NCBI RefSeq assembly: GCF_002938425.1
Contig: NZ_POQU01000026.1
Location: forward strand, 1-39,833
Reading direction: 5' to 3'
Source of the DNA: Blastococcus atacamensis
Lineage (GTDB): Bacteria > Actinomycetota > Actinomycetes > Mycobacteriales > Geodermatophilaceae
Length of the DNA stretch: 39,833 nucleotides
Below the pieces are notes generated by a model. The model saw only the letters and a program-made list of their open reading frames with translations. It made no database searches and was not told the origin of the DNA. Shown here piece by piece: positions 2 to 21,162 of the stretch (its first letter is position 1; every line of letters starts with the position of its first letter). The position numbers were made by a program, and so were the translations under genes.

Positions 2-3000
2 CTGGAGCAGGCCGCGCATATTGCCTGGCACGAGGCGCCCGCCCACCCGCAGGCGGCCCCGCACCCCTCCTGCTTCGGTTCGACCACGAGACGCGCACGA
101 CTGCGGACGATCGTCCGTAAGGACGAAGCGCGCATGACGCGCGGTGAGCTCGGCGCCAAGCAGTGGCTCGAGCGCCTCGTGCCTGAGTCGAATTGGACCG
201 ACGAGGATTGCGCAGCCGCGATTCGGGTCTTCGGACTCGTGTCCGACGTCCACACGAAAAAGGGCTTGGAGGCCGCTCGCGTCATTCCGGACGTCGATGG
301 TCAGCGGCACCCGCTCTATGCCATCGATGAGCTCTATCTCCGTGGTGAGGTGACGGGTGTCGCGACGAATCTGCCACTCGTCCGCCCCTCCTTGCTCGAG
401 CGCCCCGGTGTCGTCGACGTTCTGACTGATCAGGGATTTCGGGCGGCCGACCCCGTCGAAGAACTCATCCGATTGGTCGACTCGATCGACCGACGTTGGG
501 GTCACGCACAGTGGGGCGCCCTCTGGCAGCTCGTCGACAAGGTCGGCGGCACCGATGCCCGTGACATCCTGCTCGGCTATGTCGGGCGCGGTGGTGTTCT
601 GCGGGTGCGGGCGCGAGACGGTGCCTGGCACGAACCTAGCGAGGTGGTCGTCGCCGGCCTGGTCGAGCCGCTTGATCCGGCTCTCGTACTCGACGAGGCC
701 CTCCACGGCCTTCATCTCGGGATCCTGGAACTGATCGGCGTCGGAATGAGGCCGCTCGTCAGCGCAGCACTGCTCCGGGACGCGACCTTCCAGGAGTACC
801 GGAACACCCGACGAGAGCTGTACCTCCAGGTGGCGACCGGGCGCCGGCCCGATCCGCTCGCACTGATTTTCGATCGCACGGAAGGGCTAACCGGGCTCCA
901 GCTTCTCCGCCGATTTGTCGAGACCGGCGACCAGACCGCGCGGCTCCTGTGGACGAGGGAACTGCTCGAGGCGGACCAACCTCGTCAGTGGCAGCTCGTA
1001 CACAACAAGCGCCCCGACCAGTTCCTGCCGCTCGACTGCCCCGCTCCTCACATCTGGACGGTGCAACGTTTCGGCAGTCTCGACACCCAATGGGGTCCCC
1101 GACCGACCCGGCAGGCCCTTGCTCGCTCGTTGAGTCACTTCGCGCCCTACCTCCCCGTGGCACGTAACCCGGCGGCGGACACGCTGGATCTCGTGCGCGA
1201 CCTCGAGGCCGTGCCCGTCGACACCTGGCGGGAGTTCCTCACGCGGGTGCCGACGGCGGGTGACCCGGTCGTCCTCGGGCGGCTGTTGGCCGTGGCTGCG
1301 GCCGAGCTCCCCGAGAAGGAGACTCCTGTCGCGCTCCCGGCGGTCACTTCCGGGGTGGGTGCCCTCGTGCGCCCGTCGGATCTCTACCTTGCCCAGGACG
1401 AGGACGAGGCCCGCGAGCTCGCCTCGCGAGACCTTCCCCACGTCGTCGTGGAGGACGAGGCCGCCACCTTGCTCACCGCTCGATGGGGCTGCCGGCTCGC
1501 CTCTGCACACCTGCGAGTCGAGGTCCTCGTGGATGCGCCCCGCACGCCGGTCGGTCTTCTCGATCGCTACCGCGGCCTGCGCCCCGTGGCAGGCAATCGA
1601 CTCGACGGCCTCCGCCTGGTCGAGTGCAGCAGCGTCGTACGCCAGGTGACCGCACCGGACGGCGTTGATGCCCGTCCGGAGGACATCGCGATCGACGGCG
1701 ACACCGTCTACCACCTCGACACACTCAGCGACGAGGAGCTCCTTGAGCGCCTCGCTGAGAAGTTCGAGGTCCCCCTCACGACGACGACCGTCGATCAGAT
1801 CCTCCGGGACGCCAGGACCGAGCAGCTCAACACCATGATCGCCACCTGCCGCCTGGAGCGGGACCACGCGGCCAAGCTGCTTGTGCTCCGCGACCCCGCG
1901 GCGCTCGAGAGGCGGCTACCCAAGGGGCTGATCGACTCCCTTCGCCGCATGGGCCAGGACCTCACAGCCCACGAAGTCGCGAGACTCTTCCTCGACGTCC
2001 ACGGCTACGACGCGCTGTGGGAGCTGCGCCGGGAATTCGAGGAGTCGGGGCTCCCGGTCCCCTCCCAGTGGGCGGGGACGTCGCCTGCCATCAAGTTCGT
2101 CAGCGAGCTGGGTTTCCCGGCGGAGTACGCCGGCACGCCCGGCAACCACCTGGCGGCCGACCTGACGGTCGCTGGCCCCCCGGAGTTGGATCCTCTGCAC
2201 TGGTATCAGGAGCGGTACGCCGACAAGATTCGACAGCTGGTTGTCGAGCGCGGTCGCGCCCTGCTCTACCTGCCGACCGGCGCAGGGAAGACCCGGGTAA
2301 CGGTGGAGGCGTTCGTGCGCGCCTTCACCGAGGACGACTTCCGGGGACCGCTGCTGTGGATCGCCCAGAGCGAAGAACTTTGTGAGCAGGCCGTGCAGAC
2401 GTGGAGCGTTGTCTGGCGGCAATTCGGTGACCGTCGACCCCTGCGCATCGGGCGGCTCTGGAGTCGCAACGAGGTGGCCCAGACGGAGGACGATGTCAGC
2501 GTCATCGTGGCGACGGACGCCAAATTGGCGGTCTGCCGCGAGAAGGACGATTACGACTGGTTGGCGAATCCGTCTGCGGTGGTCATCGACGAGGCGCACA
2601 GCGCGATCGGGACGGACATCACCGCCACCCTGCGGTGGCTGGGCATCGACAGTCGCCGGACGTCCCGACCGCTCTTGGGTCTGACCGCAACTCCGTTCAA
2701 GGGCCGTAGTGCCGAGGGCACCGAGCGACTCGCAGCGCGCTTCGACCGCAACCGATGGAACGAACTGGGTGAGGATCCCTACGGAACCTTGCAGCAGATG
2801 GGCGTCCTGTCCCGTGTTCAGCACCGTCGACTGCCCGGCTCGGACTTCGTGCTCGACGCCGACGAGCAGCGCAAGACCAAGGAGCGGGGCCTACTGCCCA
2901 GTCAGGTTCTCGAGCGGATCGGTCGCGACGAGGCTCGGACCCTGCGCCTGCTCGAGGACATCAACGACCTGCCCGCCGACTGGCCGGTGCTGGTCTTCAC

Positions 3001-3391
3001 CGCCTCGGTCCAGTCGGCGCAGGTGCTGGCCGCCCTGCTCAAGTATCGAGGAATCACAGCAGCCGCGGTCAGCGGCGCAACCCGCATCCACGAGCGGCGC
3101 CGGGCGATCGAAGGTTTCAAGAACCGGGAGATCCGGGTGCTGACCAATTGCAGCGTCTTGACCGAGGGCTTCGACGCACCCGGCGTCCGCGCGCTGTACG
3201 TGGCACGCCCGACCTTCAGCCCTAACGCCTACATCCAGATGGTCGGCCGAGGTCTCCGAGGCCCTCTCAACGGCGGCAAGGAGGAGTGCCTCGTCGTGAA
3301 CGTCGAGGACACCTTCGGCCAGTTCGGCGAGAGCCTCGCCTACAAGGAGTTCGACCACTTGTGGGACCAGGACGGTGGCGAGCCGGCGTGA
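2..3391 (+). CDS. DEAD/DEAH SF2 helicase, 5'-truncated by the window edge
   Basis: This is a superfamily II ATP-dependent helicase/translocase, probably acting on DNA in the cytoplasm. Residues are numbered from the ATG at 134. Walker A PTGAGKT lies at 714-720, the DEAH box at about 819-822, and motif VI QMVGRGLRG at about 1035. The frame of the ATG at 134 has no stop back to base 2, so that Met is probably internal and the gene starts upstream of the window. About 700 residues precede the helicase. Part of this (around residues 50-180) recalls sacsin/NO VEIN-type proteins, so the missing N-terminus might hold a GHKL ATPase; this is inference. The stop overlaps the next GTG start (GTGA), so it heads, or is internal to, the DISARM-like operon. 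The helicase call is firm; the family and true start are not. Confidence 0.85.
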   Translation: MEQAAHIAWHEAPAHPQAAPHPSCFGSTTRRARLRTIVRKDEARMTRGELGAKQWLERLVPESNWTDEDCAAAIRVFGLVSDVHTKKGLEAARVIPDVDGQRHPLYAIDELYLRGEVTGVATNLPLVRPSLLERPGVVDVLTDQGFRAADPVEELIRLVDSIDRRWGHAQWGALWQLVDKVGGTDARDILLGYVGRGGVLRVRARDGAWHEPSEVVVAGLVEPLDPALVLDEALHGLHLGILELIGVGMRPLVSAALLRDATFQEYRNTRRELYLQVATGRRPDPLALIFDRTEGLTGLQLLRRFVETGDQTARLLWTRELLEADQPRQWQLVHNKRPDQFLPLDCPAPHIWTVQRFGSLDTQWGPRPTRQALARSLSHFAPYLPVARNPAADTLDLVRDLEAVPVDTWREFLTRVPTAGDPVVLGRLLAVAAAELPEKETPVALPAVTSGVGALVRPSDLYLAQDEDEARELASRDLPHVVVEDEAATLLTARWGCRLASAHLRVEVLVDAPRTPVGLLDRYRGLRPVAGNRLDGLRLVECSSVVRQVTAPDGVDARPEDIAIDGDTVYHLDTLSDEELLERLAEKFEVPLTTTTVDQILRDARTEQLNTMIATCRLERDHAAKLLVLRDPAALERRLPKGLIDSLRRMGQDLTAHEVARLFLDVHGYDALWELRREFEESGLPVPSQWAGTSPAIKFVSELGFPAEYAGTPGNHLAADLTVAGPPELDPLHWYQERYADKIRQLVVERGRALLYLPTGAGKTRVTVEAFVRAFTEDDFRGPLLWIAQSEELCEQAVQTWSVVWRQFGDRRPLRIGRLWSRNEVAQTEDDVSVIVATDAKLAVCREKDDYDWLANPSAVVIDEAHSAIGTDITATLRWLGIDSRRTSRPLLGLTATPFKGRSAEGTERLAARFDRNRWNELGEDPYGTLQQMGVLSRVQHRRLPGSDFVLDADEQRKTKERGLLPSQVLERIGRDEARTLRLLEDINDLPADWPVLVFTASVQSAQVLAALLKYRGITAAAVSGATRIHERRRAIEGFKNREIRVLTNCSVLTEGFDAPGVRALYVARPTFSPNAYIQMVGRGLRGPLNGGKEECLVVNVEDTFGQFGESLAYKEFDHLWDQDGGEPA

Positions 3392-4977
3392 AACTCGTCC
3401 CCGCCACCTCGGCTCTCGGGCCCGTCGACAGCAAGGCCGAGCTCCGCGTCGCCCAGCTGCTCGAGCAGATCGACTTCGCCTCCCCCGTGGCCGCGCTGTA
3501 CTCGGTGCACCTGCCCGTGCACGAGTACAAGCGGATGTCCGAGATCGACTTCCTCGTCGTCTGGGACGACACCGTGCTCGTCGTCGAGGTCAAGGGCGGC
3601 CGACTGGGACGTCGGGCCGGGCTGTGGACCTTCACGGACCGTTACGGCCGAACCGACGAGAAGCGGGAAGGCCCGTTCGAGCAGGCTCGCAGTGCGATGT
3701 TCGCGCTGCAGCGTCGGGTTGAGGAGAAGCTCCCCTCGGTGGACGTCGCCTGGGGTTATCTCGTCGTGACCCCCGACCAGACGCTGCCGTCGGACATCGA
3801 GTGGCACCCGGCCCAGTACGCAGGCCACGAAGCCATGTCCGTATCGCGCATGGCGAAGGCTCTGACGGACGCCCGGGCACACGCCCACTCGACCCGGTCG
3901 CGTCCGGTCCGCGGGGGTGCCTACGGCGACCTCATGCGGGTACTCCGTCCCGACTTCGACTGGGTGCCGACCCTGGGTGCCTTCGGTCCCCGGCTCGAGC
4001 AGGAGTACGTCCGGCTGGCCGAGCGTCAGTACGACCTGCTCGTCGGAGCCGAACGCCACAAGCGCGTCCTCTGCGTCGGCGGCGCCGGTTCCGGCAAGAC
4101 GCTCCTGGCGACGGAGACTGCGAGGCGCGCCGCCTGCACCGGTGCGTCGGTGCTGGTGACGTGCCGCTCACCTCGTCTGGCGGAGCTCCTTCACGCCCGT
4201 CTCGACGGGACCGGGGCCACGGTCGTGCCCTTCGACCGTTTGGACGCGTCGACGACGCCGGCCGACGTGCTGGTCGTCGACGAGGCGCAGGATCTGCTCG
4301 ACGTCGACAGCCTCCTGGTGCTCGATGAGGTGGTTGCCGGGGGGCTGACCGGTGGGCGCTGGCGCGTATTCTGCGACCCCAACAATCAGGCCAACGTCGA
4401 CGGGACCTTCGACGCGGCCGCCTTCGACGAGCTGGCTGCCTCGGCCGTCGTCGTCGATTTGCCGTACAACTGCCGCAACACGGCTCAGGTGGTGGCTCAG
4501 ACCCAGCTCATCACCGGTGCCGACATCGGTGTCGCACGCGCAGGCGAGGGCCCGCAGGTCGTGTGGGAGCAGTGCCCGGACGACGAGGCGACTGCCAAGT
4601 TGCTCGATCTGCGGCTGAAGGCGTTGCGCCGGGATGACGTCGACATGGCCGACGTCGCCGTCGTCACACTGCGGCAGCGAGTCGAGGACAGCGCGGCCGT
4701 CGCCTCTCGGGCCTACCGCACCGGCCGCCTTGCGTCGGTCTCCGGCACGCCTGTCGCCGGCACCGCGTTGCTAGTGACGGCATCGGAGATCAAGGGTCTC
4801 GAGGCCCGCCACGTCTGCGTGATCGACGTCGACGAGACCGACGACGCAATCGCCCGCGCACGGCTGTACGTCGCCATGACGCGGCCCAGGGTCAGCCTCT
4901 GGCTCGGGGTCTCGCCTCACGCCTGGACACAACTCGCCCAACGCCCGAACCCGTCGGAGGACCCCGGTGACCGCTGA
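3388..4977 (+). CDS. NERD nuclease-domain / UvrD-like SF1 helicase
   Basis: This 529-aa protein has an N-terminal NERD (nuclease-related) domain with E18, D54 (SEIDFLVV) and E67-V-K69, a PD-(D/E)XK-like arrangement. A superfamily I helicase follows, with Walker A GGAGSGKT at about 231-238, Walker B VLVVDEAQD at about 294-302, a YNCRNT segment, SEIKGLEARHVCVIDV and the motif VI region YVAMTRPRVSLW. The likely role is DNA unwinding with possible DNA cleavage. I chose GTG 3388 because it overlaps the previous stop by 4 nt (GTGA) and gives a NERD domain of normal length; the same frame runs further upstream inside the preceding gene. The next gene starts 11 nt before this one ends, which implies translational coupling. 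NERD/UvrD proteins often occur in defence islands, but they are not a standard DISARM component. Confidence 0.88.
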   Translation: MKLVPATSALGPVDSKAELRVAQLLEQIDFASPVAALYSVHLPVHEYKRMSEIDFLVVWDDTVLVVEVKGGRLGRRAGLWTFTDRYGRTDEKREGPFEQARSAMFALQRRVEEKLPSVDVAWGYLVVTPDQTLPSDIEWHPAQYAGHEAMSVSRMAKALTDARAHAHSTRSRPVRGGAYGDLMRVLRPDFDWVPTLGAFGPRLEQEYVRLAERQYDLLVGAERHKRVLCVGGAGSGKTLLATETARRAACTGASVLVTCRSPRLAELLHARLDGTGATVVPFDRLDASTTPADVLVVDEAQDLLDVDSLLVLDEVVAGGLTGGRWRVFCDPNNQANVDGTFDAAAFDELAASAVVVDLPYNCRNTAQVVAQTQLITGADIGVARAGEGPQVVWEQCPDDEATAKLLDLRLKALRRDDVDMADVAVVTLRQRVEDSAAVASRAYRTGRLASVSGTPVAGTALLVTASEIKGLEARHVCVIDVDETDDAIARARLYVAMTRPRVSLWLGVSPHAWTQLAQRPNPSEDPGDR

Positions 4978-7900
4978 GCTCGATCTCCCCGATGTGCGGG
5001 AGCGCTTCGTCGGCCATCTGCGCGGTCAGTACCTCGGCCCACAGGACGGGCAGGACGAAGTCCTCCGTACGCGTCCCGACCGGCACTACCTCGTGGGAAC
5101 TCTCTACCCACGGGCGCAGACGGCCGTCCACCACGACGGGTCGAAGCTCGGCGACGAGCCGCTCGACGACGACCTGGATGAGCCGATCGAGCTGGCCAAC
5201 GCGTGGCACCCCGCCTCGGCCGCCGTGTCCTTCCTCCACGACGCCGCGGCCCTCTCGTGCACCGTCACGGCGGGCCGGTACGAGCGGGCGGAGACCGAGG
5301 AGGACGGCTGGCGCCGGACCCCGATGCAGGCCGACGACGTGGACCTCGCCCCGGACGCCCCGACGCGAGCTCTGTTCGACGGCCGGGCCCGACTCGTGTC
5401 CGTCTGGCGTCGGACGGCCGACCGATGGCTGGTCACCGTGGCGGTGGAGAACACCGCCGTCCACGACGACGCGGACACGCCGCCGCCCACCGAGAAGTGT
5501 CTGTTCCAGGTCCACGTGCGCTGCCGGACCGTGGACGGGGTCGTGCACCCCTACCCCTCCCCCGACGACCTCAGCGACGACCCGGAGGAACAGGAGCTCC
5601 GTCTTCTGTACCGAGCCCGCCGCGCCTACGGCGTGGGCCACGGCTGCTCCGTGAACTGGACCCTGTCCGAGAACGGGAACGTCACCGAGGTCGAGACGGA
5701 AATGTTGCCGATGACCTCGGTGCCAGCGACGAAGGGTCCGGAACTGGCCTCACCGGCGCTGTCGCTGCGCCGGCTGGCCGACGCGAGCTCCTCCGTCGAG
5801 GACCTCTGCACCGACCTCGACGCGTTCGTGGACGCCTACAAGACCTGGGCGGACGAGCGTGCCGCCGAGATCGACACGCTGCCGGGACACCACCACGACG
5901 CCGCGCGTCGGCTGGTTTCCCGGATCCGTACGGCGAAGGACCGCATGCGCGCGGGCGTCACCCTCCTTCGCACCGACGCACGAGCGCTCCTGGCCTTCCG
6001 ACTGGCCAATGCCGCCATGCGCGAGCAGATGCTGCAGAGCGCCCATGTGGAGAGACTTCCGGGCGAGTTCGGTCGGCCGCTCGCTCCGCGCCCCGAACAG
6101 CGCGAGCCGACGTGGCGACCGTTTCAGCTCGGCTTCCTCCTGCTCACGCTGCCGTCGATGACCGACGACCGCCATCCCGACCGGGAGACGGTCGACCTCA
6201 TCTGGTTCCCCACGGGCGGCGGGAAGACCGAGGCCTACCTCGGACTCGCGGCCTATGAGATGGTGCGTCGCCGGCTCGACCGGGGACTGGCCGGCGGCGG
6301 CACCGCCGTCCTGACCCGGTACACGCTGCGGCTGCTCACCACGCAGCAGTTCCAGCGGGCCGCGACCCTGATTTGCGCCCTCGAGCGGCTGCGGGACGAC
6401 CACCCGGCGCTGGATCGCACGCCCCCGTTCTCCATCGGCCTGTGGGTCGGCAGCGGCACGACGCCGAACGACTACGAGACGGCTCACAAGCAGGCGGTCG
6501 ACCTCAAAAAGGCCCAGACGCCGGTCAGTCCGTACCAGATCCAAAACTGCCCGTGGTGCGGAACACCGCTGTTCCCGGAGAAGCGCTCGAAGGAGGCCGC
6601 CTATGGCGTCCGGACGACGAGGTCTACGTTCGAGCTGTTCTGCCCCAACGACGAGTGCTCGTTCCACGACGCCCTGCCCGTTCAGGTGGTGGACGAACAG
6701 ATCTTCGACCACCCGCCCACGTTGCTCGTGGCCACGGTGGACAAGCTGGCCCGGCTGCCGTGGCTGGAGGACGCCGGTTCCTTGCTCGGCCTCGGCAACG
6801 TCCCCTTCGATGCCCCCAGCCTGGTCATCCAGGATGAGCTCCACCTGCTCTCCGGACCGCTGGGGACGACCGTCGCTCTCTACGAGTCGGCCGTGCAAGG
6901 GCTGCTGGGGTGGAACGGCAAACGACCGAAGGTTGTCGCGTCCACGGCCACCATTCGCGCGGCCGACCATCAAGTGCGCAGTCTGTACGGCACGGTCGTG
7001 GCTCTTTTCCCGCCCAGCGGGCTGTCCGCCGACAACAGTTTCTTCGCGGTGCCCGACCCGACCAAGCCGGGCCGCCTCTACATGGGTTTGATGCCGCAGG
7101 CTCACACCCAGGCGTTCGCCACCGTGTTGGCGTCCACGGCCCTCCTGCAAGGCCCCGCACAGCTGGAGCTGGACGGTGCCGCCAAGGATGCGTACTGGAC
7201 GGTCGTCGCATACCACAACAGCCTGCGGGAACTCGGCCGCACGGTCACCATCGCCCGGGACGACGTCGAGAGCATGCTCCTGGCCCGATCGAGCCCGGAG
7301 CATCCGAGTCGCAGGCTCAAGCGTGACGGCGTCGTGGAGTTGACGAGCAACGTCCGGCCGGAGCAGCTTCCGCAGATCCTCGCCCAGCTGGAGCGCAAGG
7401 CCGATCACGCGGAGGCCGTGGATCTCCTCGCCACCACCAACATGTTGTCGGTGGGTATCGACATCAGCCGGCTGGGCCTCATGCTGATGAACGGCCAGCC
7501 GAAGACGACGTCGGAGTACATCCAGGCCACCAGCCGGGTGGGTCGCGGGAAGGTGCCCGGTCTCGTGGTCACCCTGCTGCGTGCCTCGAAGCCCCGCGAC
7601 CGGTCCCACTACGAGGCGTTCCGCGCCTATCACGAGGCGCTCTACCGCTACGTCGAGCCCACCAGCGTCACCCCGTGGTCCCTGGCCTCGCGGGAACGGG
7701 CGCTCAGCGCCGCGCTGGTCATGATGGTCCGCCACGGCGTCGGGCTCCGGTCCAACGAGGATGCCGGGGAGTTCTCGGCGGACGATCCGCGGGTCAAGGC
7801 GGCCGTGGAACGCATCCGAGCCATTGCGTCACTCGCCGATCCCGACGAGGCGCAGCGGGTGACGGACGAGCTGCAGCGGCTCGTCAACGAGTGGGATCAC

Positions 7901-8071
7901 CGCGCGTCCGAGGCGGTGGCGCGTGGGGAGAAGCTGCGTTACCGGTCGCCCAAGGGTGAAGCGCTGCTCAAGGAGTTCGGCGAACGGAAGGACGGCTGGG
8001 AGACGATGCACTCGATGCGCTCGGTGGACCGACAGGTTCGGGTGCTCGCCATCGGGGAGACCGCTCGATGA
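4967..8071 (+). CDS. DrmA-like DISARM helicase
   Basis: This 1034-aa SF2-type helicase resembles DrmA, the helicase of the anti-phage DISARM system. Walker A PTGGGKTEAY is at about 415-424. A predicted zinc cluster has C528/C531 (CPWC) and C559/C564 (CPNDEC). The Walker B box is DELH at 623-626, followed by motif III STATI. The C-terminal signature has SVGIDISRLGLMLMNG and QATSRVGRG. The start is GTG 4967, preceded by GGAGG and overlapping the end of the NERD helicase gene by 11 nt. The stop overlaps the DrmB-like start (ATGA), and this helicase/DUF1998 order is the DISARM core arrangement. It appears somewhat shorter than typical DrmA. DrmA and DrmB form a complex in studied systems; the same here is inference. 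Confidence 0.85.
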   Translation: MTAELDLPDVRERFVGHLRGQYLGPQDGQDEVLRTRPDRHYLVGTLYPRAQTAVHHDGSKLGDEPLDDDLDEPIELANAWHPASAAVSFLHDAAALSCTVTAGRYERAETEEDGWRRTPMQADDVDLAPDAPTRALFDGRARLVSVWRRTADRWLVTVAVENTAVHDDADTPPPTEKCLFQVHVRCRTVDGVVHPYPSPDDLSDDPEEQELRLLYRARRAYGVGHGCSVNWTLSENGNVTEVETEMLPMTSVPATKGPELASPALSLRRLADASSSVEDLCTDLDAFVDAYKTWADERAAEIDTLPGHHHDAARRLVSRIRTAKDRMRAGVTLLRTDARALLAFRLANAAMREQMLQSAHVERLPGEFGRPLAPRPEQREPTWRPFQLGFLLLTLPSMTDDRHPDRETVDLIWFPTGGGKTEAYLGLAAYEMVRRRLDRGLAGGGTAVLTRYTLRLLTTQQFQRAATLICALERLRDDHPALDRTPPFSIGLWVGSGTTPNDYETAHKQAVDLKKAQTPVSPYQIQNCPWCGTPLFPEKRSKEAAYGVRTTRSTFELFCPNDECSFHDALPVQVVDEQIFDHPPTLLVATVDKLARLPWLEDAGSLLGLGNVPFDAPSLVIQDELHLLSGPLGTTVALYESAVQGLLGWNGKRPKVVASTATIRAADHQVRSLYGTVVALFPPSGLSADNSFFAVPDPTKPGRLYMGLMPQAHTQAFATVLASTALLQGPAQLELDGAAKDAYWTVVAYHNSLRELGRTVTIARDDVESMLLARSSPEHPSRRLKRDGVVELTSNVRPEQLPQILAQLERKADHAEAVDLLATTNMLSVGIDISRLGLMLMNGQPKTTSEYIQATSRVGRGKVPGLVVTLLRASKPRDRSHYEAFRAYHEALYRYVEPTSVTPWSLASRERALSAALVMMVRHGVGLRSNEDAGEFSADDPRVKAAVERIRAIASLADPDEAQRVTDELQRLVNEWDHRASEAVARGEKLRYRSPKGEALLKEFGERKDGWETMHSMRSVDRQVRVLAIGETAR

Positions 8072-9873: not shown

Positions 9874-9901
9874 ATATGTACGCCCTGAGGCGTGGACGGC
9901 C

Positions 9902-10546
9902 GTGAGCGCAGACTCCGTGTGCGTCGACTACCCGTGGCTGGAGCCCACGGTGCACAAGAGGAACGGGCGCTACCGGGTGACTCCCGCCGGCGACATCGAG
10001 CTGGTCGCCTTCCGGGACGGTGTCGAGGTCCGTGCCACAGGCACGGAGCGGCATCCGGAGCTCGGTGCGATGGTGCACCGGTGCTCTCGACAGGACCGGT
10101 CCACGTGGTTCTCGATCAACGAGTGGCGCCACGTGCTCCTGAAAAAGGACGGCCGAACCCTGTATGCCGGGCGTTACGACACGCCCCTCCGCTTCCAGCT
10201 GGATGGAGAGACGATCTTCACCGAGGCACCGCGGGGCCTGCGTCCGGGGCAACCCTGGGCGGGGCCGCGGACGGGCATGAAGTACACGCTCACCGCGACG
10301 GGCAAGGACGTCTACGGCAAGCAGCGGACGCCAGACGGCGCCGAGCGGAAGATCTTTCTCAGCTCGTACCTGATCGGGTGTGACCTTCACGTGTCGGAGT
10401 GGGGTCGGCACAAGTCACGTGGCGGGGCCGTGTACATCAACGAGAGCCGCGAGCTCTTCGGGCCCGGGGACGACGATGACTACGTCTACCTGGGCTACGT
10501 TCCGCTCGACACCTGGTTCCCACGTCCCGCGGTCGAGGACGACTGA
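9902..10546 (+). CDS. Unrecognised 214-aa protein ending the DISARM-like operon
   Basis: I do not recognise this protein. It starts at GTG 9902, 28 nt after the DrmB-like gene, and is probably co-transcribed with it. The sequence is soluble, without signal peptide or membrane segment. It is rich in charged residues and aromatics, with many short alternating stretches that suggest a beta-rich fold. The C-terminus has an acidic run (PGDDDDYVY) and then YVPLDTWFPRP. There is no Walker motif and no obvious PD-(D/E)XK, HNH or PLD motif. It sits where DrmC would be expected, so it might be a specificity or effector subunit, but nothing visible proves this. It converges on a methyltransferase gene 18 nt away. 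Confidence 0.75.
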   Translation: MSADSVCVDYPWLEPTVHKRNGRYRVTPAGDIELVAFRDGVEVRATGTERHPELGAMVHRCSRQDRSTWFSINEWRHVLLKKDGRTLYAGRYDTPLRFQLDGETIFTEAPRGLRPGQPWAGPRTGMKYTLTATGKDVYGKQRTPDGAERKIFLSSYLIGCDLHVSEWGRHKSRGGAVYINESRELFGPGDDDDYVYLGYVPLDTWFPRPAVEDD

Positions 10547-10564
10547 CGGCGGCTGCTACGGGGA

Positions 10565-11683: not shown

Positions 11684-11888
11684 AGCCTCACGCTAGCCGG
11701 CACCGATGACGGGGTCCGCCAGCGACCCGCCCTCGTGGCCTTGACCTCTGCCGTCAGGCAGTCGGAGTTCCGTCACACGCGCACCCTCGGGAACACCAGT
11801 CCCCCGCAGCCCCGGCGCCAACCGCATCGCCTCAGGGCAGCGGCACGTGTGCTTACCCTCTCGACGGCAAGCCAACGAAGGGGACTCG
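11684..11888. promoter_or_regulatory. Divergent intergenic region, MTase 1 / Z1 operon
   Basis: This 205-bp spacer lies between divergently read genes, so it should contain promoters for both the methylase and the Z1 operon. A GAAGGGGA stretch (11878-11885) is a plausible ribosome-binding site for the GTG at 11889. I cannot assign convincing -35/-10 pairs. No long open reading frame with coding-like bias is visible. Confidence 0.4.
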
Positions 11889-14513
11889 GTGACAACGGGT
11901 ACGACGGAAGAAGTCGATCAGCTTTACAAGGTCTTCCAACAGTTCACACAGTCGATGACGCCGCACGACGCCGTGAAGAACCTCCAGCTGTTCGGCGCCG
12001 ACGAGTCGATCATCCGCGCCGTCCGGGAGCGTCACGATGCGGAGAGCCTGCGCATCCGGAATCTCGACGAGCCCTCCTCGGTGTATCTCGACGGCAGACA
12101 GACCTGGTACACGGGCCCCGACATGGACAACGACCGGAACTGGCCCGCGCTCATCGCGTCGTTGCGTCACAAGGGATTCGGCGACGAGAACATCGAGGCA
12201 ATCGACAAGTCCTCGACGAAGGTCGTCGCGCTGCTCGACCATCCGAAGCAGGCTGCCTTCCGGACGCGTGGGCTCGTCGTCGGCTTTGTCCAGTCGGGCA
12301 AGACCACGAACTTCACCGCCGTCATGGCCAAGGCGGCCGACCGCGGCTACAAGCTCTTCATCGTCCTGTCCGGCATCCACAACACTCTTCGCCGCCAGAC
12401 ACAGATCCGACTTGTCAAGGATCTTGTCGAGTCGAACCCCGGGCAGTGGCACCAGGTCACCAGCGAGACCCATGACTTCCGGCCACCGCCCAACCCGAAA
12501 GCGTTCTTCGCCTCGACGGACCAGTGCCTGCTCCTGGTCGTCAAGAAGAACGCCGCCGTGCTGCGAAAGCTCCGGACGTGGCTTGCCAAGGCCGGCGAGT
12601 ACCTCGAGAACTGCCCCACACTGATCATCGACGATGAGGCCGATCAGTCGACGGTTGCCACCGCCAAGATCAACCCGTTGCTCTTCGACGTCCTGAGCAA
12701 GTTCCCCAGAGTCGGTTACGTCGGGTACACGGCGACGCCCTTCGCCAACCTCTTGATCGACCCATCGGTGGACGAGGATTTCTATCCCCGGGACTTCATC
12801 GTCAACCTCCCTCAGCCGGTCGGCTACCACGGTACCGAGGTGCTGTTCGGGCGAGAGCTGCTCGACGGAGAGGATCCTGCCGACCTTCCGGGCGGCTACG
12901 ACATGGTCCGGGTCGTCCACGACGACGAGGTGGATGACCTGAAGCCTCGCAGCAAGAAGGAAGCCGCAACCTTCCAGCCGGCCGTCACGCGCTCGCTGCA
13001 AGCAGCGGTTGAATGGTTCTGGCTGGCGACTGCCGCTCGACGTGCGCGGGGCGGAGGCAACCCGCACTCGACGATGCTGGTCCACACGACCACCGAGACC
13101 GTGGTGCACGAGGCCTTCAAGGAGCCCTTGCTACACCTGCGCTCATCGATCGCGGACCGACTGGACAACGACGACGCGCGCACCCTCAACCGTCTGCGGG
13201 CGACGTGGGAGCGCGAGACCCGCCTTGTCCCAGCCGAGGATTTCGCCGAGGACAAGGTCCCATTCGACGTTCTGCTACAGCACCTACCGAAGGTCGTCCG
13301 CGAGACGAAGATCATCGTCGACAACTACCGAAGCACCGACCGGCTCAACTACGAAGCCGGGCCGGTCACCGCGATCACGATCGGCGGCAACACCTTGTCG
13401 CGAGGCCTGACCCTGGAAGGCCTCGTGTCCAGCCTCTTCGTCCGGGCCGTGTCCGCCTACGACACGCTGCTCCAGATGGGGCGGTGGTTCGGCTACCGGG
13501 ACGGGTACGGCGATCTGCCGCGCATCTGGATGACCGAGGAGCTGGCCGAGTGGTTCAGCCATCTCGCGACTGTCGAGGCCGACATGCGCCGCGACATCGA
13601 CCGCTACATGCACAACCCGGCGGAGACCCCGATGACGTTCGCGGTCCGCATCCGATCACACCCGAAGATGGCCATCACCAACAAGGCCAAAATGAAGTCC
13701 GCCATCCTCTCGCATGCCGCCTACGGGGGGACGCTCGTCGAGTCACGCTTCTTCGACGTCACGCCCGAAGGGAAAGCACGGCTGGCCGGAAACGTCGCTG
13801 CCGCCCGCTCGCTGCTCCACGACGCCCATCGGCACGGAGTCCGGGCTGAGCCACCGCGCCCAGAGACCGCTCTCTTCACCCAGGTGCCCCACGACGACAT
13901 CGCCGCCTTCCTGCGCAGCTACGAGTTCCACGAGCGTTCGTCTGACGCTCACCGCGGGCGGCTCTTGGACTACATCAGCAAGCGCGCGCGTAAGGGCGCG
14001 CTCAAGCAATGGAGTGTTGCCGTGGTCGGCAACTCCCTACCCGGCGCCACGACCGGTCGATGCAGCCTCGGCGCCGACATCGAAGTGCGGATGGTCAAGC
14101 GTGCCCGGCTCGGTCATGAGTCAGAGCTGGACCCGGAGTCGGAATCGGCCTTCGACGGCGTCGCGGACATCAAGACCCTCAGCAGCCGGCGGGACGAAAC
14201 CATCGATCTCGACATCAGCGGCAAGGACATCGGCGGTCGGAGTCAGATACTCAACCTGCGCACCAAGCAGCGACCGGATCAGGGCTTGCTTCTTATCTAT
14301 CCGATTGAGCCCGAGTCAAAGTCCGAGAAGATCGGCCGCCGGCCACTAGACGCTCCGACGGACGACGTCGTGATTGGCGTAGCCCTGGTGTTCCCGAAGC
14401 CGCGGCCGGGTACGTCGGACACGGACGTCGAGTACTGGAGCGCCGACCTGTCCGGGGTCGCGGTCGAGGAGGAGGACCTGTCGGTCCTGGACCAGGACGA
14501 CGAGGCCGCGTGA
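11889..14513 (+). CDS. Z1-domain ATPase (SF2 helicase-like)
   Basis: This 874-aa protein carries the Z1 domain of helicase-like ATPases found in MORC/paraMORC-type restriction systems. It has GFVQSGKTTN (Walker A, 132-141), SGIHNTLRRQTQ, LIIDDEADQ (Walker B, 245-253) and GYTATPFANLLID. The distal signature is TIGGNTLSRGLTLEG with LLQMGRWFGYR. It is expected to couple ATP hydrolysis to DNA translocation or remodelling for the neighbouring nuclease. I prefer GTG 11889, which has a purine-rich RBS, over the in-frame GTG at 11847. The stop overlaps the DUF4420 start by 4 nt. The long C-terminal part (after about residue 600) has no motif I recognise. Confidence 0.93.
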   Translation: MTTGTTEEVDQLYKVFQQFTQSMTPHDAVKNLQLFGADESIIRAVRERHDAESLRIRNLDEPSSVYLDGRQTWYTGPDMDNDRNWPALIASLRHKGFGDENIEAIDKSSTKVVALLDHPKQAAFRTRGLVVGFVQSGKTTNFTAVMAKAADRGYKLFIVLSGIHNTLRRQTQIRLVKDLVESNPGQWHQVTSETHDFRPPPNPKAFFASTDQCLLLVVKKNAAVLRKLRTWLAKAGEYLENCPTLIIDDEADQSTVATAKINPLLFDVLSKFPRVGYVGYTATPFANLLIDPSVDEDFYPRDFIVNLPQPVGYHGTEVLFGRELLDGEDPADLPGGYDMVRVVHDDEVDDLKPRSKKEAATFQPAVTRSLQAAVEWFWLATAARRARGGGNPHSTMLVHTTTETVVHEAFKEPLLHLRSSIADRLDNDDARTLNRLRATWERETRLVPAEDFAEDKVPFDVLLQHLPKVVRETKIIVDNYRSTDRLNYEAGPVTAITIGGNTLSRGLTLEGLVSSLFVRAVSAYDTLLQMGRWFGYRDGYGDLPRIWMTEELAEWFSHLATVEADMRRDIDRYMHNPAETPMTFAVRIRSHPKMAITNKAKMKSAILSHAAYGGTLVESRFFDVTPEGKARLAGNVAAARSLLHDAHRHGVRAEPPRPETALFTQVPHDDIAAFLRSYEFHERSSDAHRGRLLDYISKRARKGALKQWSVAVVGNSLPGATTGRCSLGADIEVRMVKRARLGHESELDPESESAFDGVADIKTLSSRRDETIDLDISGKDIGGRSQILNLRTKQRPDQGLLLIYPIEPESKSEKIGRRPLDAPTDDVVIGVALVFPKPRPGTSDTDVEYWSADLSGVAVEEEDLSVLDQDDEAA

Positions 14514-15502
14514 CGCTCGACGGCGCACAACTCGACCTGATCTGGGCCACTGCGGCCGGTCGTCCAGTCGTCTCCGCCTTCCGCACGGCTCCTATCGGGG
14601 TCAACACACCCCAGGGAGCCGTGCAGGCGGGAGTCGACGCGGAGGGACACCGTCACCTACTGGTGCCCTTGGCATCCAGGCACAGCCTCCAGGAGATCCT
14701 CGACGGCGACGCCGTCATCCTCCGCCAGCGGGCCCTCGAGGACGAGCACCGTTATCAGCAATACGCCTCGCTCGAACTCGTCGACGAACGTCACGCCGAT
14801 CTGTTCACCGCACTGTGCGTCGAGGTGGCGGAGCGGGTCGCTGCGACACCAGAGCGGGCCGTCGCCGCACTGCGCGATGCGCTCAAGGACTGGCGCGCGC
14901 TCCTGGCGGGCAATCGTCAGGTCCTCCCCTCTTCGGCTCTGGCCGGCCTCTTCGGAGAGCTGCACCTTCTCCGGTCGATGCTCCTCCAGGACACCGGCGC
15001 CGCCGCGTTCTGGACGGGGCCGACCGGGTCCGCACAGGACTTCCACCGCGGCGGCCGCGCTGTCGAAGTGAAGACGACGACGGCGCCGGAGGGTCGGTCC
15101 ATCCGTATCCACGGCACCGACCAGCTCGACGTCGAGGCGCCTGGGCAGCTGCTCCTGCACTGGCTGCGGGTCCAGTGCGACCAGGGGACGTCGGTGCCTG
15201 AGCTCGTCGACGACATCATGCAGAGAACGGATGACACCGCCGGCTTTCGCAAACGGCTGCAAAAGGTCGGCTACTACGAATCGGACCGTGACGTCTACGC
15301 GCGGAAGAGCTTCGACGTCATCGAGGTACGTACGTACGAGATCGGCCCGGGGTTTCCTCGGATCACACCGTCGGGACTAATCGGCGACGCCGCGCTCGGC
15401 GGGGTCGGGCCGGTCGAGTACAGCGTCGATCTGGACGCCCCGCCGGCCGACGCTCGTCGCATCCATATCGATCCGTCCGAGTTCCTGCTGGAGCGCATGT
15501 GA
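14510..15502 (+). CDS. PD-(D/E)XK motif endonuclease (DUF4420 family)
   Basis: This 330-aa protein matches the DUF4420 family of PD-(D/E)XK nucleases, which regularly follow Z1 genes. The likely catalytic set is E150 (GLFGELHLL), D177 (AQDFH), E186 and K188 (AVEVKTT). It is therefore the probable DNA-cleaving subunit of the Z1/GHKL restriction complex. The length is normal for the family and the motif is intact, so it should be active. The start is GTG 14510, overlapping the Z1 stop (GTGA). The downstream junction with the GHKL gene is also a 4-nt overlap, which favours stoichiometric expression of a complex. Confidence 0.92.
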   Translation: MTLDGAQLDLIWATAAGRPVVSAFRTAPIGVNTPQGAVQAGVDAEGHRHLLVPLASRHSLQEILDGDAVILRQRALEDEHRYQQYASLELVDERHADLFTALCVEVAERVAATPERAVAALRDALKDWRALLAGNRQVLPSSALAGLFGELHLLRSMLLQDTGAAAFWTGPTGSAQDFHRGGRAVEVKTTTAPEGRSIRIHGTDQLDVEAPGQLLLHWLRVQCDQGTSVPELVDDIMQRTDDTAGFRKRLQKVGYYESDRDVYARKSFDVIEVRTYEIGPGFPRITPSGLIGDAALGGVGPVEYSVDLDAPPADARRIHIDPSEFLLERM

Positions 15503-17400
15503 TCACGCCACGCTGGTGGTCGCAGCCCTTTCCTCCGACGGGTGCAATCGCCTCGGAGGGGATCCGCAACCAGCTCGGGCGGCCACCGGTCGACCCGCTG
15601 ACGGTGTTCGTCCGGGAAACCGCACAGAACTCCTGGGACGCTCGACTGCCCGGCGTCGAGACGGTCTACCGTCTCGAGCTGACCACGGTGGCTCCCAGCT
15701 ACCGGCCCACCTGGGAGCGGCTGCTCACTCCGCCGGCGGCCGTGCAGGAGCACCTGGGTGTCGGCCGGGCCGTGAGCACTCCCAATCTCCGCCTCCTGTC
15801 GGTCGTCGATCGAGGCACGAAGGGCTTGGGCGGTCCCACGCGAGCGGATGAGCTTACCGACGGCCGCCGCGACTGGATCTCGTTCGTGCTCAACGTCGGC
15901 GAGAAGCGCGACACCTCGCTGGGGGGCGGCACCTACGGCTATGGAAAGGCCGTTCTCTACCGCCTGTCCCGCGTCGGCACCATTCTGGTGTACACGCGAA
16001 CGGCCGACGAGACGGGTATCCTCGTCTCCCGCCTGATCGGCATAGCCCTGGGGCGGTCGTTCGACAACCGCGGACGGGTGGATACGGAGAGCAGGCCGTT
16101 CACCGGTCGTCACTGGTGGGGTGACGTGCGCGACGATCACGTGGAGCCCCTCGTAGGCGATGGGGCCGACGAGGTCGCGCGCTCGCTCGGACTGACCCCG
16201 TTCGAGTACGGCGAGTCGGGTACCACACTCGTCGTCATCGACCCCGATCTCGACGACTTCGAGGACATGGAACAGGCCGCGCAGCACCTGGCCGAGACGA
16301 TCGCGTGGCAGCTGTGGCCGATCATGCTGCCCGAGCGCGGTACCGATCGCCTCGCGCCGGTCGTGGTGGCGGCAGGCCGTGCGTTCCCCGTACCGGACCC
16401 TTCCCGTGTCTACCCACTGCGGATGTTCGTCGCCGCTCATCGCCGTCTCCCCACCGACAGCGCGACGACGCTCGACTGCGGCAATCCGCGAAAGCGGCTG
16501 GGGCGCTTTGCCCTGGAACGCTCGGTCGTCGTTCCGATGTCCCCGAGCGCGGTCTCTCTTGCCGCCAGCTTCGCGGGCGTCGACGGCGACCCGCACCACG
16601 TGTGCTTGATGCGGTCACCGGAGCTGGTGGTCCGCTACCACGAGGGGCCCAGCACCAGTTCCGTGCACAGCGTCTACGCGGGCGTGTTCCGTGCCGACGA
16701 CCAGCTCGACGACGTCTATGCCGCCTCCGAGCCGCCCACGCACGACAACTGGGTGTCCGAGCAGTTGACGGGGCACGAGCGCACCTTCGTCAGAGCCACC
16801 TTCATGCGGCTGCGCGAGCAGCTGGCCGTCTTCCGCGCCCCGGCACAGAACGCGCCCTCGACCACGTCGCGGACGGCCCTCGGCGCCGTCAGCAACTACC
16901 TCGGCGGACTCGTCGCCGCTGCATTCGCAAGCACTGATGAGCAGCCGGGTCGACGGGAATCAGGTAGGCCCGGCGTCCCGAGAACACCCACGAGTGGCAG
17001 CGGTCAGGATTCGCCCAGCAGCCTCAACGGAAGCGGCGGCGCCGGCTCATCGCCCGCGACCCGGGCGCGGGTCACGACCTTGATGGAGCCGCACATCGAG
17101 GCAGCGAACGGGTCGGTCGTCCTCGTCGCGCGCTACGCCGTGACGACCCCTGGCCCCGTCCGGCTCGACGCCCGCCTGTCCGTCGCGACCTGGGAGGGGC
17201 GCGAGGACGAGCCACCGGCCGGCGCGGCCCGACCAATGGTGCGTGAGTGGCGCACCGCCCACGGCACGGTCACCGACGAGTTCTGCGTCGTGAACGGGCC
17301 GGCCGAGGTCGAGCTCGTCGTGGTCCCCGTGCCGGACACCGCTACGGACATGAGCGTCGTCGCCACGCCGCTCACGGAGCTCACCGAGGGCGCGGCATGA
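15499..17400 (+). CDS. GHKL ATPase, paraMORC/MORC-like
   Basis: This 633-aa protein has an N-terminal GHKL (gyrase/Hsp90/histidine kinase/MutL) ATP-binding fold. The N-box is VRETAQNSWDA, with E40 and N44. The G1 box is VVDRGTKGLGG, with D104. The G2 glycine-rich lid is GGGTYGYGK at 142-150. Such ATPases in Z1/DUF4420 operons were described as prokaryotic relatives of eukaryotic MORC proteins. They are thought to clamp or reorganise DNA-protein complexes during restriction. A low-complexity Gly/Ser/Pro-rich linker at about 475-520 separates the ATPase part from a C-terminal beta-rich domain. The start is GTG 15499, overlapping the DUF4420 stop; the stop overlaps the next ATG. Confidence 0.88.
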   Translation: MITPRWWSQPFPPTGAIASEGIRNQLGRPPVDPLTVFVRETAQNSWDARLPGVETVYRLELTTVAPSYRPTWERLLTPPAAVQEHLGVGRAVSTPNLRLLSVVDRGTKGLGGPTRADELTDGRRDWISFVLNVGEKRDTSLGGGTYGYGKAVLYRLSRVGTILVYTRTADETGILVSRLIGIALGRSFDNRGRVDTESRPFTGRHWWGDVRDDHVEPLVGDGADEVARSLGLTPFEYGESGTTLVVIDPDLDDFEDMEQAAQHLAETIAWQLWPIMLPERGTDRLAPVVVAAGRAFPVPDPSRVYPLRMFVAAHRRLPTDSATTLDCGNPRKRLGRFALERSVVVPMSPSAVSLAASFAGVDGDPHHVCLMRSPELVVRYHEGPSTSSVHSVYAGVFRADDQLDDVYAASEPPTHDNWVSEQLTGHERTFVRATFMRLREQLAVFRAPAQNAPSTTSRTALGAVSNYLGGLVAAAFASTDEQPGRRESGRPGVPRTPTSGSGQDSPSSLNGSGGAGSSPATRARVTTLMEPHIEAANGSVVLVARYAVTTPGPVRLDARLSVATWEGREDEPPAGAARPMVREWRTAHGTVTDEFCVVNGPAEVELVVVPVPDTATDMSVVATPLTELTEGAA

Positions 17401-18290
17401 CCCGGGTCTTCCCCTTCCTCCGTCCGCCGTCCGACGTCGTCTCCGTAGGTCCTTGGTCCCGCCTCTCCCCCGACGGGACCGAGCCGCTCCCTGACACCCT
17501 CGTCGACTGGGACTACAGCACGACGCTGTCCCTGCACCGGCCGGTGTCCGTCGACGGCCTCCGGCTCCGCGAGCTGGCCGGCCTCACCGAGGATGCTGCG
17601 GTCGATCTGACCGTGCAGTGGTTCGCGACGAACTCGCTGCTGCGTGGGCGGGCGTGGCGATCCGCACTTCCGGTGGAGAATGCGTTCGACGTGACGATCG
17701 AGTGCGCCCTCCCCGGCGACGATCTCGGCGGCGCACTGGAACTCATCACGAGCGTCACGCTTCGTTCATCCTCACCGGGGGCCTCACCGGCGGCTCCGGC
17801 CCGGCCCGGCAGCGTCCTGTGGTCGGATCGCCAGCGGGTCGTCCTCGAGGGCGAGAACACGCTCTTCCCCATCGCGACCGCGGACTTCCACGACCTGCCC
17901 TACCCCACCGGCGCCGGCTGGTACCTGCACATCGACGAGGACCTGGACGGCGCAGCCCTCGGGTCGATCCTGCTGCTGGTCAATGAACGCCACGAAGTCG
18001 TGATGCGTGCTGTCCGGGCGGCCTCCGCTCCCACGGAGGCGGACCAGCGGGTCCTCTCGACCTTGCGGGCAGACGTTCTCCGAGTGCTGGTGGAACGGGC
18101 TCTGACCGACGAGGGCCTGCAGGAGGACGTCGATCACCCCGTCGGCTCACTGGGAGCGCTCCTGGTCAGCGTCGTCCGTAACGCCTTCCCGGCCTTCTCG
18201 ATGGAGGCTCTGCGCCGGGAGCGTCAGAACGCCCCAGCACTGTTCAGCAGTCGCCTCCAGGAGACGTCTCAATTGCTGGTGGCATCGTGA
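17397..18290 (+). CDS. Unrecognised 297-aa protein of the Z1/GHKL operon
   Basis: I cannot name this family. ATG 17397 overlaps the GHKL stop (ATGA), and its own stop overlaps the next GTG, so it is embedded in the operon and probably belongs to the same complex. It has no signal peptide, membrane segment, Walker motif or nuclease motif. A Ser/Pro/Ala-rich linker at about 125-140 divides it. The second half contains GWYLHIDEDLDGAALGSILLLVN and ends in helix-rich sequence. The same frame runs further upstream inside the GHKL gene, but ATG 17397 is the natural start given the coupling. A structural or adaptor subunit is a reasonable guess only. Confidence 0.8.
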   Translation: MTRVFPFLRPPSDVVSVGPWSRLSPDGTEPLPDTLVDWDYSTTLSLHRPVSVDGLRLRELAGLTEDAAVDLTVQWFATNSLLRGRAWRSALPVENAFDVTIECALPGDDLGGALELITSVTLRSSSPGASPAAPARPGSVLWSDRQRVVLEGENTLFPIATADFHDLPYPTGAGWYLHIDEDLDGAALGSILLLVNERHEVVMRAVRAASAPTEADQRVLSTLRADVLRVLVERALTDEGLQEDVDHPVGSLGALLVSVVRNAFPAFSMEALRRERQNAPALFSSRLQETSQLLVAS

Positions 18291-19090
18291 GCGTCCTCTA
18301 CCCGCGACTGCTCGGGGACGCCGCGCGGGAGCTGCACAGTCAGTACCAGCACGCTCCGATCGCCAAGCTCCAGGAAGGGCACGCTCTGCGCCACCCGTCA
18401 GCGGTGTTCGCCGCCACCGGTGGGCGGCGTGTCACTGCGGAGGAACTCCAGCGCCTGCGGGAGGACATCCTGACCGTCGCTGCGCGAGCCGGCTTCCCGA
18501 ACGAGGGCCGACGCCAGGACCGGATGGACTTCGACGTCGAGGTGGCGCAGCTGTTGCACCGGCGGTGCGGGTTGGTCGCTGCGGAGGCATCCGTCAGGCC
18601 GATGTGGGCGTTCCTCGCGCTCGTGCTGCTGCCCGATGTCTCGTACTGGCGCTTCCCCCGCCCCCCCGGGGACCGGGTCCTGGGCACGGACATCACTCGG
18701 CACGTCTGGGGCAGGCTCTGGTGGCGAGCACACCTGCTAGCCCTGCCGCAGGAACACGAGCGGTACCGCCTTCTGGAGACCTTCGGCGAGGCGGCCTTCG
18801 ACCAGATGTACGCCCGCAGGAGGTCGATTGGTGGTAGCCGCATCCTCGTCCGGGCCGTTGCAGACGCCTGGCCGACGGTGGACCGGGGGCGGGTCCCTGA
18901 GCGGACGCTGCTGATCGACGTGCTGAAGCGCTTGTCCCGGTGGGGGGCGGTGGTCGACTTCGAGTCCCTGGACGACGATGAGTTGCGGCGCCAGGTCCAG
19001 GAAGCGGTGACCGAGTCCGCCGCAGTACTGCGCGCCGTCTACGTGCAGGACGTCGGGCCACGCCACGCGAGCGACCGGACGCTGGGCTAA
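18287..19090 (+). CDS. DUF6339-like protein
   Basis: This 267-aa protein resembles the DUF6339 family that closes many Z1/DUF4420/GHKL operons; its biochemical role is unknown. The sequence is mostly helical and rich in Arg and Trp. Recognisable segments are RRQDRMDFDVEVAQLLHR and LGTDITRHVWGRLWWRAHLL. It has no visible catalytic motif or membrane segment. GTG 18287 overlaps the previous stop by 4 nt, so all five genes from Z1 onward are translationally coupled. The TAA stop overlaps the end of the converging vsr gene by 4 nt, so no terminator fits between them. The family assignment is from memory of the sequence pattern and is moderately sure. Confidence 0.75.
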   Translation: MSVLYPRLLGDAARELHSQYQHAPIAKLQEGHALRHPSAVFAATGGRRVTAEELQRLREDILTVAARAGFPNEGRRQDRMDFDVEVAQLLHRRCGLVAAEASVRPMWAFLALVLLPDVSYWRFPRPPGDRVLGTDITRHVWGRLWWRAHLLALPQEHERYRLLETFGEAAFDQMYARRRSIGGSRILVRAVADAWPTVDRGRVPERTLLIDVLKRLSRWGAVVDFESLDDDELRRQVQEAVTESAAVLRAVYVQDVGPRHASDRTLG

Positions 19091-19521
19091 GCCTGGCGGA
19101 CCATCCGCTCGATCACGTCGACCGCTGCGACTGGATCCTCGTGTTCCCAAAACCGGAGAACCGTCCATCCGAGTTCGTGCAGGCGTTCATCAGTCTGACG
19201 GTCACGCTGCTGGTTGCGTTGGAGCTTCTCCACCCACCAGTCACGGTTGGCCGTGGGCGTCGTCGCGTGGGTCGGGCAGGAGTGCCAGAAGCACCCATCC
19301 ACGAACACCGCCACGCGGCGTCGAGTGAACACCATGTCCGCCCTCCTACGGGGCAGCCCGGTGATCGCAGCATCGACCCGATACCGCAGACCTCGACGGT
19401 GCGCCTCGCGCCGGATCGCGACTTCCGGTGCGGTGTCCCGCCGACGGGCACGGCTCATCCGAGCCGCCACCTCGGGAGAAGAGGCAGGAGGGCGGGCCGA
19501 CACCCAGTCAGCCTCCCTCAC
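19087..19521 (-). CDS. vsr: Very short patch repair endonuclease (Vsr)
   Basis: This is a 144-aa, full-length Vsr-type endonuclease. It nicks DNA at T:G mismatches created when 5-methylcytosine deaminates at the site of a partner Dcm-like methylase. Key features are E33 in the N-terminal helix, D62 (RRADMVF), the FWH motif at 78-80 within DGCFWHSCPTH, the WW..KL..N..RD helix and the C-terminal GWTVLRFWEHED. The likely start is GTG 19521; a second GTG sits six codons in. It lies between DUF6339 and MTase 2, diverges from MTase 2, and shares four bases with the converging DUF6339 gene. Intact motifs suggest it is active and serves one or both local 5mC methylases. Confidence 0.93.
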   Translation of the reverse strand: MREADWVSARPPASSPEVAARMSRARRRDTAPEVAIRREAHRRGLRYRVDAAITGLPRRRADMVFTRRRVAVFVDGCFWHSCPTHATTPTANRDWWVEKLQRNQQRDRQTDERLHELGWTVLRFWEHEDPVAAVDVIERMVRQA

Positions 19522-19660: not shown

Positions 19661-19684
19661 GCGCATGCCGCCTCGGGCATGCGC
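19661..19684. promoter_or_regulatory. Palindrome upstream of MTase 2 (possible operator)
   Basis: A perfect 9-bp inverted repeat, GCGCATGCC / GGCATGCGC, with a 6-nt spacer ends 26 nt before the MTase 2 ATG, inside the 189-bp vsr/MTase 2 divergent region (19522-19710). Each arm contains GCATGC. A weak TAGTGT at 19642 could be a -10 element, which would place the palindrome just downstream of transcription start. It could be an operator, a self-methylation site for autoregulation, or a hairpin in the leader. Its function is inferred from position. Confidence 0.45.
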
Positions 19685-19710
19685 CGGCACGAACGGTGGG
19701 TGCTCGCTCG

Positions 19711-20823
19711 ATGGGTGAAGTGGACCTGGACCCTCATCTCGTCGCTCCCGCGGCAGCGCCCTTGCGAGTGATCGACCTGTTCGCCGGCTGCGGTGGCCTC
19801 ACCCAAGGCTTTACGGAGACCGGGCACTACAGGTCCGTTGCTGCGGTCGAGCACGACCTAGCTGCTGCTGCCACGTACGCCGCCAACTTCGGCGAAGACC
19901 ACGTCCATTGGGGCAAGATCGAGGACTGGGTCACCGGAGACCTCCCTGATGCTGACGTCGTCGTTGGCGGGCCTCCCTGCCAGGGCTTCTCCACCCTGGG
20001 CAAGCGCAGTCCAGATGACCCTCGCAATGAGTTGTGGCGTCACTACATGGAGACGTTGGTCAAGGTCCGCCCCCGGGCATTTCTGATCGAGAACGTCGAC
20101 CGTTTCGGTGCCAGCGACCAGTTCCAGATGCTCCGCCAGGAGACCGAGCCCGGTGGATGGCTCAAGGACTATCGGATTGACGCGCGCATCGTGCGGGCCA
20201 CGGAGTTCGGTGCGGCGCAGCTCCGCCGACGCTTCATCGTCGTCGGCACCCGCCGGGACCTGCCTACGATCGCCGTACCTACTGGCTCAGTTCCCAAAGA
20301 GGAGTGGAGGACGGTGCGCCAGGCCCTCGAAGGTCTGGCTGAGGTCGTCGACCCAGAAGATCAGCGGCTTCCGTTCATGACGACCGAGGCGTTCGGACGT
20401 CTACTGCCTGGCGTCTTCAAGTCCCCCGACCTGCATCTGACCCGGAACTACCAGAAGTTGTCCCTGGACCGGTTCGAGCACATCCCGGAGGGGGGCGACC
20501 GCCGCGACCTGCCCGACGACCTGAAGGCCAAGTGCTGGCTTCGTCACAACTCCGGGTCGTTCGACGTGATGGGGCGCATGCACTGGGACCGCCCCTCAGT
20601 GACTATTCGGACCGAGTTCTTCAAGCCTGAAAAGGGCCGTTATCTTCATCCCGAGCAACCTCGCGCGATTACGCACCATGAAGCCGCCCGGCTCCAGGGG
20701 TTCCCCGACGAGTTCCAGTGGTGTGGCAACAAGCAGGACATCGCCCGCCAGATCGGCAACGCCGTGCCGGTCGAGCTGGCGCGTGGCCTGGCCGAGCACA
20801 TCGCAACTGCACTGGGGCGCTGA
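19711..20823 (+). CDS. DNA (cytosine-5)-methyltransferase, MTase 2
   Basis: This is a 370-aa C5 cytosine methyltransferase. Motif I is IDLFAGCGG (21-29). Motif IV is GGPPCQG with catalytic C90. Motif VI is IENVD with E127, and motif VIII is QLRRR (170-174). The motif IX/X region ends in RQIGNAVPVELARG. I chose ATG 19711; an in-frame GTG at 19696 would add five residues. It is a paralogue of MTase 1, and the match extends through the recognition half: both contain DLPDDL and TIRTEFF, and RPEKGR in one matches KPEKGR in the other. The codons seem slightly less G/C-biased at position three than in neighbouring genes. It is divergent from vsr, the common Dcm/Vsr pairing, and is followed after 30 nt by a small companion gene. 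Confidence 0.93.
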   Translation: MGEVDLDPHLVAPAAAPLRVIDLFAGCGGLTQGFTETGHYRSVAAVEHDLAAAATYAANFGEDHVHWGKIEDWVTGDLPDADVVVGGPPCQGFSTLGKRSPDDPRNELWRHYMETLVKVRPRAFLIENVDRFGASDQFQMLRQETEPGGWLKDYRIDARIVRATEFGAAQLRRRFIVVGTRRDLPTIAVPTGSVPKEEWRTVRQALEGLAEVVDPEDQRLPFMTTEAFGRLLPGVFKSPDLHLTRNYQKLSLDRFEHIPEGGDRRDLPDDLKAKCWLRHNSGSFDVMGRMHWDRPSVTIRTEFFKPEKGRYLHPEQPRAITHHEAARLQGFPDEFQWCGNKQDIARQIGNAVPVELARGLAEHIATALGR

Positions 20824-20853
20824 TCTTCCTTCCGCGCGGGGCACAATTGCTCG

Positions 20854-21162
20854 GTGACACTCGCAGAGGCGTTCCAACGGGCATGTGAAGATGCCGTCGT
20901 CGAAAGCCAGCGGCTCGGCTACACCCCGACGGCCTGGATGAGCATGATGCATGGCCCAGGCGGTGCAGTCGCTGCCGCCCGTCGTCTGCTGACCAGCGGC
21001 GATGTACAGACAGGTTTCGAGCGCCTTGTTCGGATTGGCAGGCGAGACCTCACGGTTGAGGCTGCCGTGCTCGACGAGCGCTGGGCCGACCTCTTCGACG
21101 AACCTCACCGCGCAGCGGCTCGTTGGCGGCTGTCGCAGGTAGACGGCACTGGGCAACCCTGA
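20854..21162 (+). CDS. Small 102-aa companion protein downstream of MTase 2
   Basis: This 102-aa protein starts at GTG 20854. It looks like a recurrent small family found beside restriction-modification genes: a helical N-terminus, then GGAVAAARRLL, then GFERLVRIGRRDLTVEAAVLDERWADLF, and a final basic helix. It has no known catalytic motif and no classic helix-turn-helix. The biochemical function is unknown; a modulator of the neighbouring methylase or nuclease is possible. It is probably co-transcribed with MTase 2 (30-nt gap). It is the last well-supported gene of the island; downstream sequence looks degraded. Family recognition is from memory, without a database check. Confidence 0.7.
   Translation: MTLAEAFQRACEDAVVESQRLGYTPTAWMSMMHGPGGAVAAARRLLTSGDVQTGFERLVRIGRRDLTVEAAVLDERWADLFDEPHRAAARWRLSQVDGTGQP

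Follow-up and report, generated by a model that had tools for sequence, protein, structure and literature searches.

The 39,833-base stretch of DNA from the soil actinobacterium Blastococcus atacamensis analysed here (the window, which is the entire contig NZ_POQU01000026.1, C83 in our numbering) is predicted to carry two separable defence systems that are recurrent neighbours. They belong to two known kinds, one of them in variant form: module 1 appears to be a DISARM variant in which DrmC, DrmD and DrmE were not detected, and module 2 a subtype within a group of systems whose prediction dates from 2008. An initial sequence-only reading had proposed two multi-gene systems back to back, with one methylase (MT1) between them and a second (MT2) closing the second system together with Vsr, and the gene content of the window bears out this layout (Table 1).

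The neighbourhood of the two modules recurs above the controls that we ran. Both families lie within 25 kb of each other in 4 of the 14 genomes having both, with 0.13 expected under uniform placement, and control pairs with HsdR were found within that distance in 0/24 and 0/11 cases. PglZ was dropped as a co-location control, being too rare (8/394). The pairing was also found in S. zinciresistens, in the same order, in P. lacus and M. trifolii, and in the genomes G174, G167/G379 and G114. Each kind of system was found alone as well. A PADLOC scan of the flanks covered five known genes and, among the 102 open reading frames (ORFs) that have no assignment and reach 450 residues, all but the five at locus edges (97); its matches were listed for up to 25 families. 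Plain clustering in defence islands would explain the adjacency by itself; we give this explanation slightly less than an even chance, and it is compatible with two separable systems.

Each module apparently has its own DNA methylase, MT1 probably being that of module 1 and MT2 that of module 2. MT1 shares a clade with the methylases found in DrmAB loci of G007 and G016 (support 100/100), one of its relatives sitting at the same convergent place after DrmB. The G006 and G011 modules lack MT1, and their methylase is 79% identical to MT2. The tree comprises 29 of 50 rows, 19 rows of more than 500 residues and two divergent ones having been left out; the two rows of locus L027 were assigned to the DrmAB group on account of its position next to L018, a DrmAB locus. 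In PADLOC, MT1 scored 294 bits with DruM2, 223 bits with type II models and 132 bits with DrmMII. In the DISARM-like locus L027 of G007, a DDE transposase (L027:3905-5386) separates the helicase from the methylases and adjoins an MT1 relative with 88% identity to MT1 of the window.

A rival reading is a unified, co-operative super-system, in which one module would make or sense DNA intermediates for the other and one methylase may serve both. This appears unlikely to us, even though the co-location counts, the empty HsdR controls and the additional genomes with both modules would all agree with it. The sequence-only reading had likewise suggested that the modules share self/non-self marking. 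For the window, a shared methylase was rejected, since MT1 groups with the methylases of DrmAB loci and MT2 with those of the G006 and G011 modules. Sharing is possible in G448, G449, G450 and G174, where our two profiles picked out just one C5 methylase within the 40-60 kb that surround the two modules, an observation that would also agree with a super-system. A common target site for MT1 and MT2 found no support and was not disproved, their target recognition domains being 53% identical, compared with 46% overall.

The prediction that module 1 is a DISARM variant is based on the presence of a DrmA helicase and of DrmB as a separate DUF1998 gene. DrmA scored 904 bits with NF038325, slightly below the cut-off of 950, and 519.7 bits with the DrmA of PDB entry 7s9v; a C-terminal query for the methylation-sensing residue (V1296 in Serratia) matched no DrmA chain. 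The HKD/phospholipase D (PLD) pattern of DrmC occurs in none of the 14 called genes between 1 and 21.2 kb, and no DrmC is among the PADLOC matches listed for nine window proteins. Neither DrmD nor DrmE was found among all matches of the two accessory helicases of the window, nor among those of the full-length relative in L017. The PLD nuclease DrmC is frequently missing from DISARM and apparently non-essential, according to Bravo 2022 (PMC9142583). Of 60 DrmA-bearing loci, retrieved mainly through DrmA/DrmB matches and counted from a listing, 23 have a helicase of the type of the module's first gene at a distance of 0.8-1.9 kb on the upstream side of DrmA, and in the loci tested the gene in between codes for an SF1 helicase, either NERD-fused or GajB/UvrD-like.

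A sigma factor within a DISARM-like operon is unexpected, and two putative cases were found. In G167, a 975-residue protein encoded directly after DrmB (L037:7527-10454) contains sigma-70 regions 2 and 4, with a weak match to region 3, and genes for AIPR, a C5 methylase and Vsr come next; on plasmid p1 of Streptomyces fungicidicus, a 1273-residue protein with regions 2 and 4 is encoded directly before DrmA (L186:7983-11804). In a second DISARM-like locus of G345 (L047:9092-10821), DrmB is broken into two ORFs.

The opening gene of module 1 is cut at the contig edge. Its protein is 52% identical to a 1551-residue relative over 1132 alignment columns, and four full-length relatives have 1551-1596 residues. 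That the gene might be complete from the ATG at position 134 was rejected, as homology extends upstream of it to base 2 of the window, the first codon, and then into contig C150. The missing N-terminal part is a 449-residue ORF at the end of C150 (C150:6-1286), the reverse complement of which overlaps the window start exactly over 36 bases. This piece harbours the GHKL-type motifs LLELIQNAADA and GRFGLGFKS and matches TmtA with 188.7 bits, at model positions 6-411 of 1538 only. Thus, module 1 too has a GHKL ATPase, which was invisible to the sequence-only reading. In the 16.3 kb of C150, our own profiles detected no C5 methylase of the MT1/MT2 family and no Vsr. On C150, the DISARM-like operon is preceded at a distance of approximately 7 kb by a second NERD-SF1-helicase gene (L192:8350-10056, + strand; 568 residues; PADLOC RTasNERD-Hel, 108 bits).

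Conserved residues support the assignments in module 2. The SF2 helicase motif D539, T540, L542, Q543, M544, R546, W547, F548 and G549 is invariant in 10 sequences, residues E150, D177 and E186-V187-K188 of the DUF4420 protein in six, and the Bergerat-type residues of the GHKL ATPase in seven; the GHKL profile had no match in the PDB up to E=1. The 297-residue Ig-like protein and the DUF6339 protein are further conserved members of the module. Fold comparisons of their models gave weak matches that name no function, with no convincing match for DUF6339. The Vsr-like gene has counterparts in G006 and G011 with 83-86% identity, at the same position and on the strand opposite to the module. Among the 51 relatives, an MT1/MT2-type match was found within the locus in 48 and a Vsr match in 44.

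Table 1. Predicted genes of modules 1 and 2 in the window
Feature	Position	Strand	Support
GHKL ATPase–RadD-like SF2 helicase fusion, C-terminal 1129 residues	2..3391	+	ResIII 58 bits, Helicase_C 54 bits
NERD nuclease domain–SF1 helicase fusion	3388..4977	+	NERD 39.8 bits, UvrD_C_2; PADLOC RTasNERD-Hel 57.6 bits
DrmA, DISARM SF2 (YprA-family) helicase	4967..8071	+	PADLOC DrmA 710 bits
DrmB, separate DUF1998/MZB gene	8068..9873	+	NF038324 434 bits (cut-off 240); MZB 36 bits
214-residue ORF, no assigned family	9902..10546	+	not found in the relatives
MT1, C5-cytosine methylase, probably module 1	10565..11683	-	TIGR00675 142 bits
Module 2 gene	11847..14513	+	
DUF4420 PD-(D/E)xK nuclease, MzaD-like	14510..15502	+	189 bits
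GHKL ATPase, paraMORC-type	15499..17400	+	PDC-M33A 31 bits
297-residue protein, N-terminal Ig-like beta-sandwich and helical C-terminus	17397..18290	+	model pLDDT 90.9
DUF6339 protein, mostly helical	18287..19090	+	PF19866 43.7 bits; PDC-M33C 21.5 bits; model pLDDT 94.3
Vsr-like mismatch endonuclease, module 2	19087..19521	-	PF03852 57.7 bits
MT2, C5-cytosine methylase, module 2	19696..20823	+	PF00145 200 bits
102-residue ORF, no assigned family	20854..21162	+	no Pfam match

The ORF of the NERD-SF1 helicase is open from 3286, and its start at 3388 is our choice. The 214-residue ORF has neither a Pfam nor a PADLOC match, and its one-sequence profile found its best match in the window only, among the loci examined. 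Past both modules, the island-like segment 22692-26640 of the window codes for an HNH endonuclease, a MazG-like protein, a Schlafen-group helicase and a 210-residue protein with no assigned family.

Module 1 would represent a form of DISARM in which the expected DrmC, DrmD or DrmE are replaced by a fusion of GHKL ATPase and helicase together with a NERD helicase. DISARM and paraMORC systems would then have a common GHKL-plus-SF2-helicase logic, often with 5-methylcytosine marks. The recurrent pairing offers a concrete, testable case of whether adjacent defence systems co-operate.

Module 1 resembles DISARM in having DrmA and DrmB as adjacent separate genes with a cytosine methylase nearby, and differs from it by its GHKL-RadD and NERD-SF1 helicases. 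Its called genes show no DrmC motif, and the matches listed include neither DrmD nor DrmE nor DrmMI. The N-terminal GHKL region of its first gene matches models of TmtA, of the Tiamat system, but only some 410 of the 1538 model positions are matched rather than the full length, and a RadD-like helicase makes up the C-terminal half. ARMADA, BRIGADE and TALON, described as YprA-family helicase systems in the parts of Bell 2025 (PMC12458937) that we covered, share this type of helicase with module 1, and TALON also its NERD nuclease. However, they typically carry the DUF1998 part fused to the helicase, whereas module 1 has a separate gene, like DISARM. Unlike in ARMADA, with its YprA helicase-DUF1998 fusion and Vsr nuclease, DrmA and DrmB are separate and DrmA has no Vsr match. 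Those parts of Bell 2025 do not mention the arrangement of module 1. No description of it was found in the accessible literature surveyed on DISARM, DrmA, DrmB, NERD, DUF1998, TmtA and sacsin, most subscription papers being outside that survey, so that its novelty is unproven.

Judging from profile scores, module 2 is not a canonical MZA system: it reaches 374.7 bits with the NCBIfam model of MzaC (cut-off 1500) and 104.4 bits with that of MzaD (cut-off 420), far under both, and nothing in the window matched our own two-sequence profile of AIPR, an MZA gene. Its GHKL and DUF6339 genes match components A and C of the PADLOC candidate PDC-M33, with weak scores (31 and 21.5 bits) and on these two genes rather than the candidate's full content. 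paraMORC-linked elements are the topic of a 2021 paper (PMC8011034). The operons of Iyer et al. 2008, in the portions of that work available to us, comprise an SF2 helicase marked by the motif DThhQXuRhFG, an E-D-ExK protein of the restriction endonuclease (RE) fold, GHKL ATPases, cytosine methylases and Vsr. Although module 2 adds the Ig-like and DUF6339 proteins, which those portions do not name, it has the same set of predicted components, with a DT-LQ-GRhFG SF2 helicase, an E-D-ExK RE-fold nuclease, a GHKL ATPase, a cytosine methylase and Vsr.
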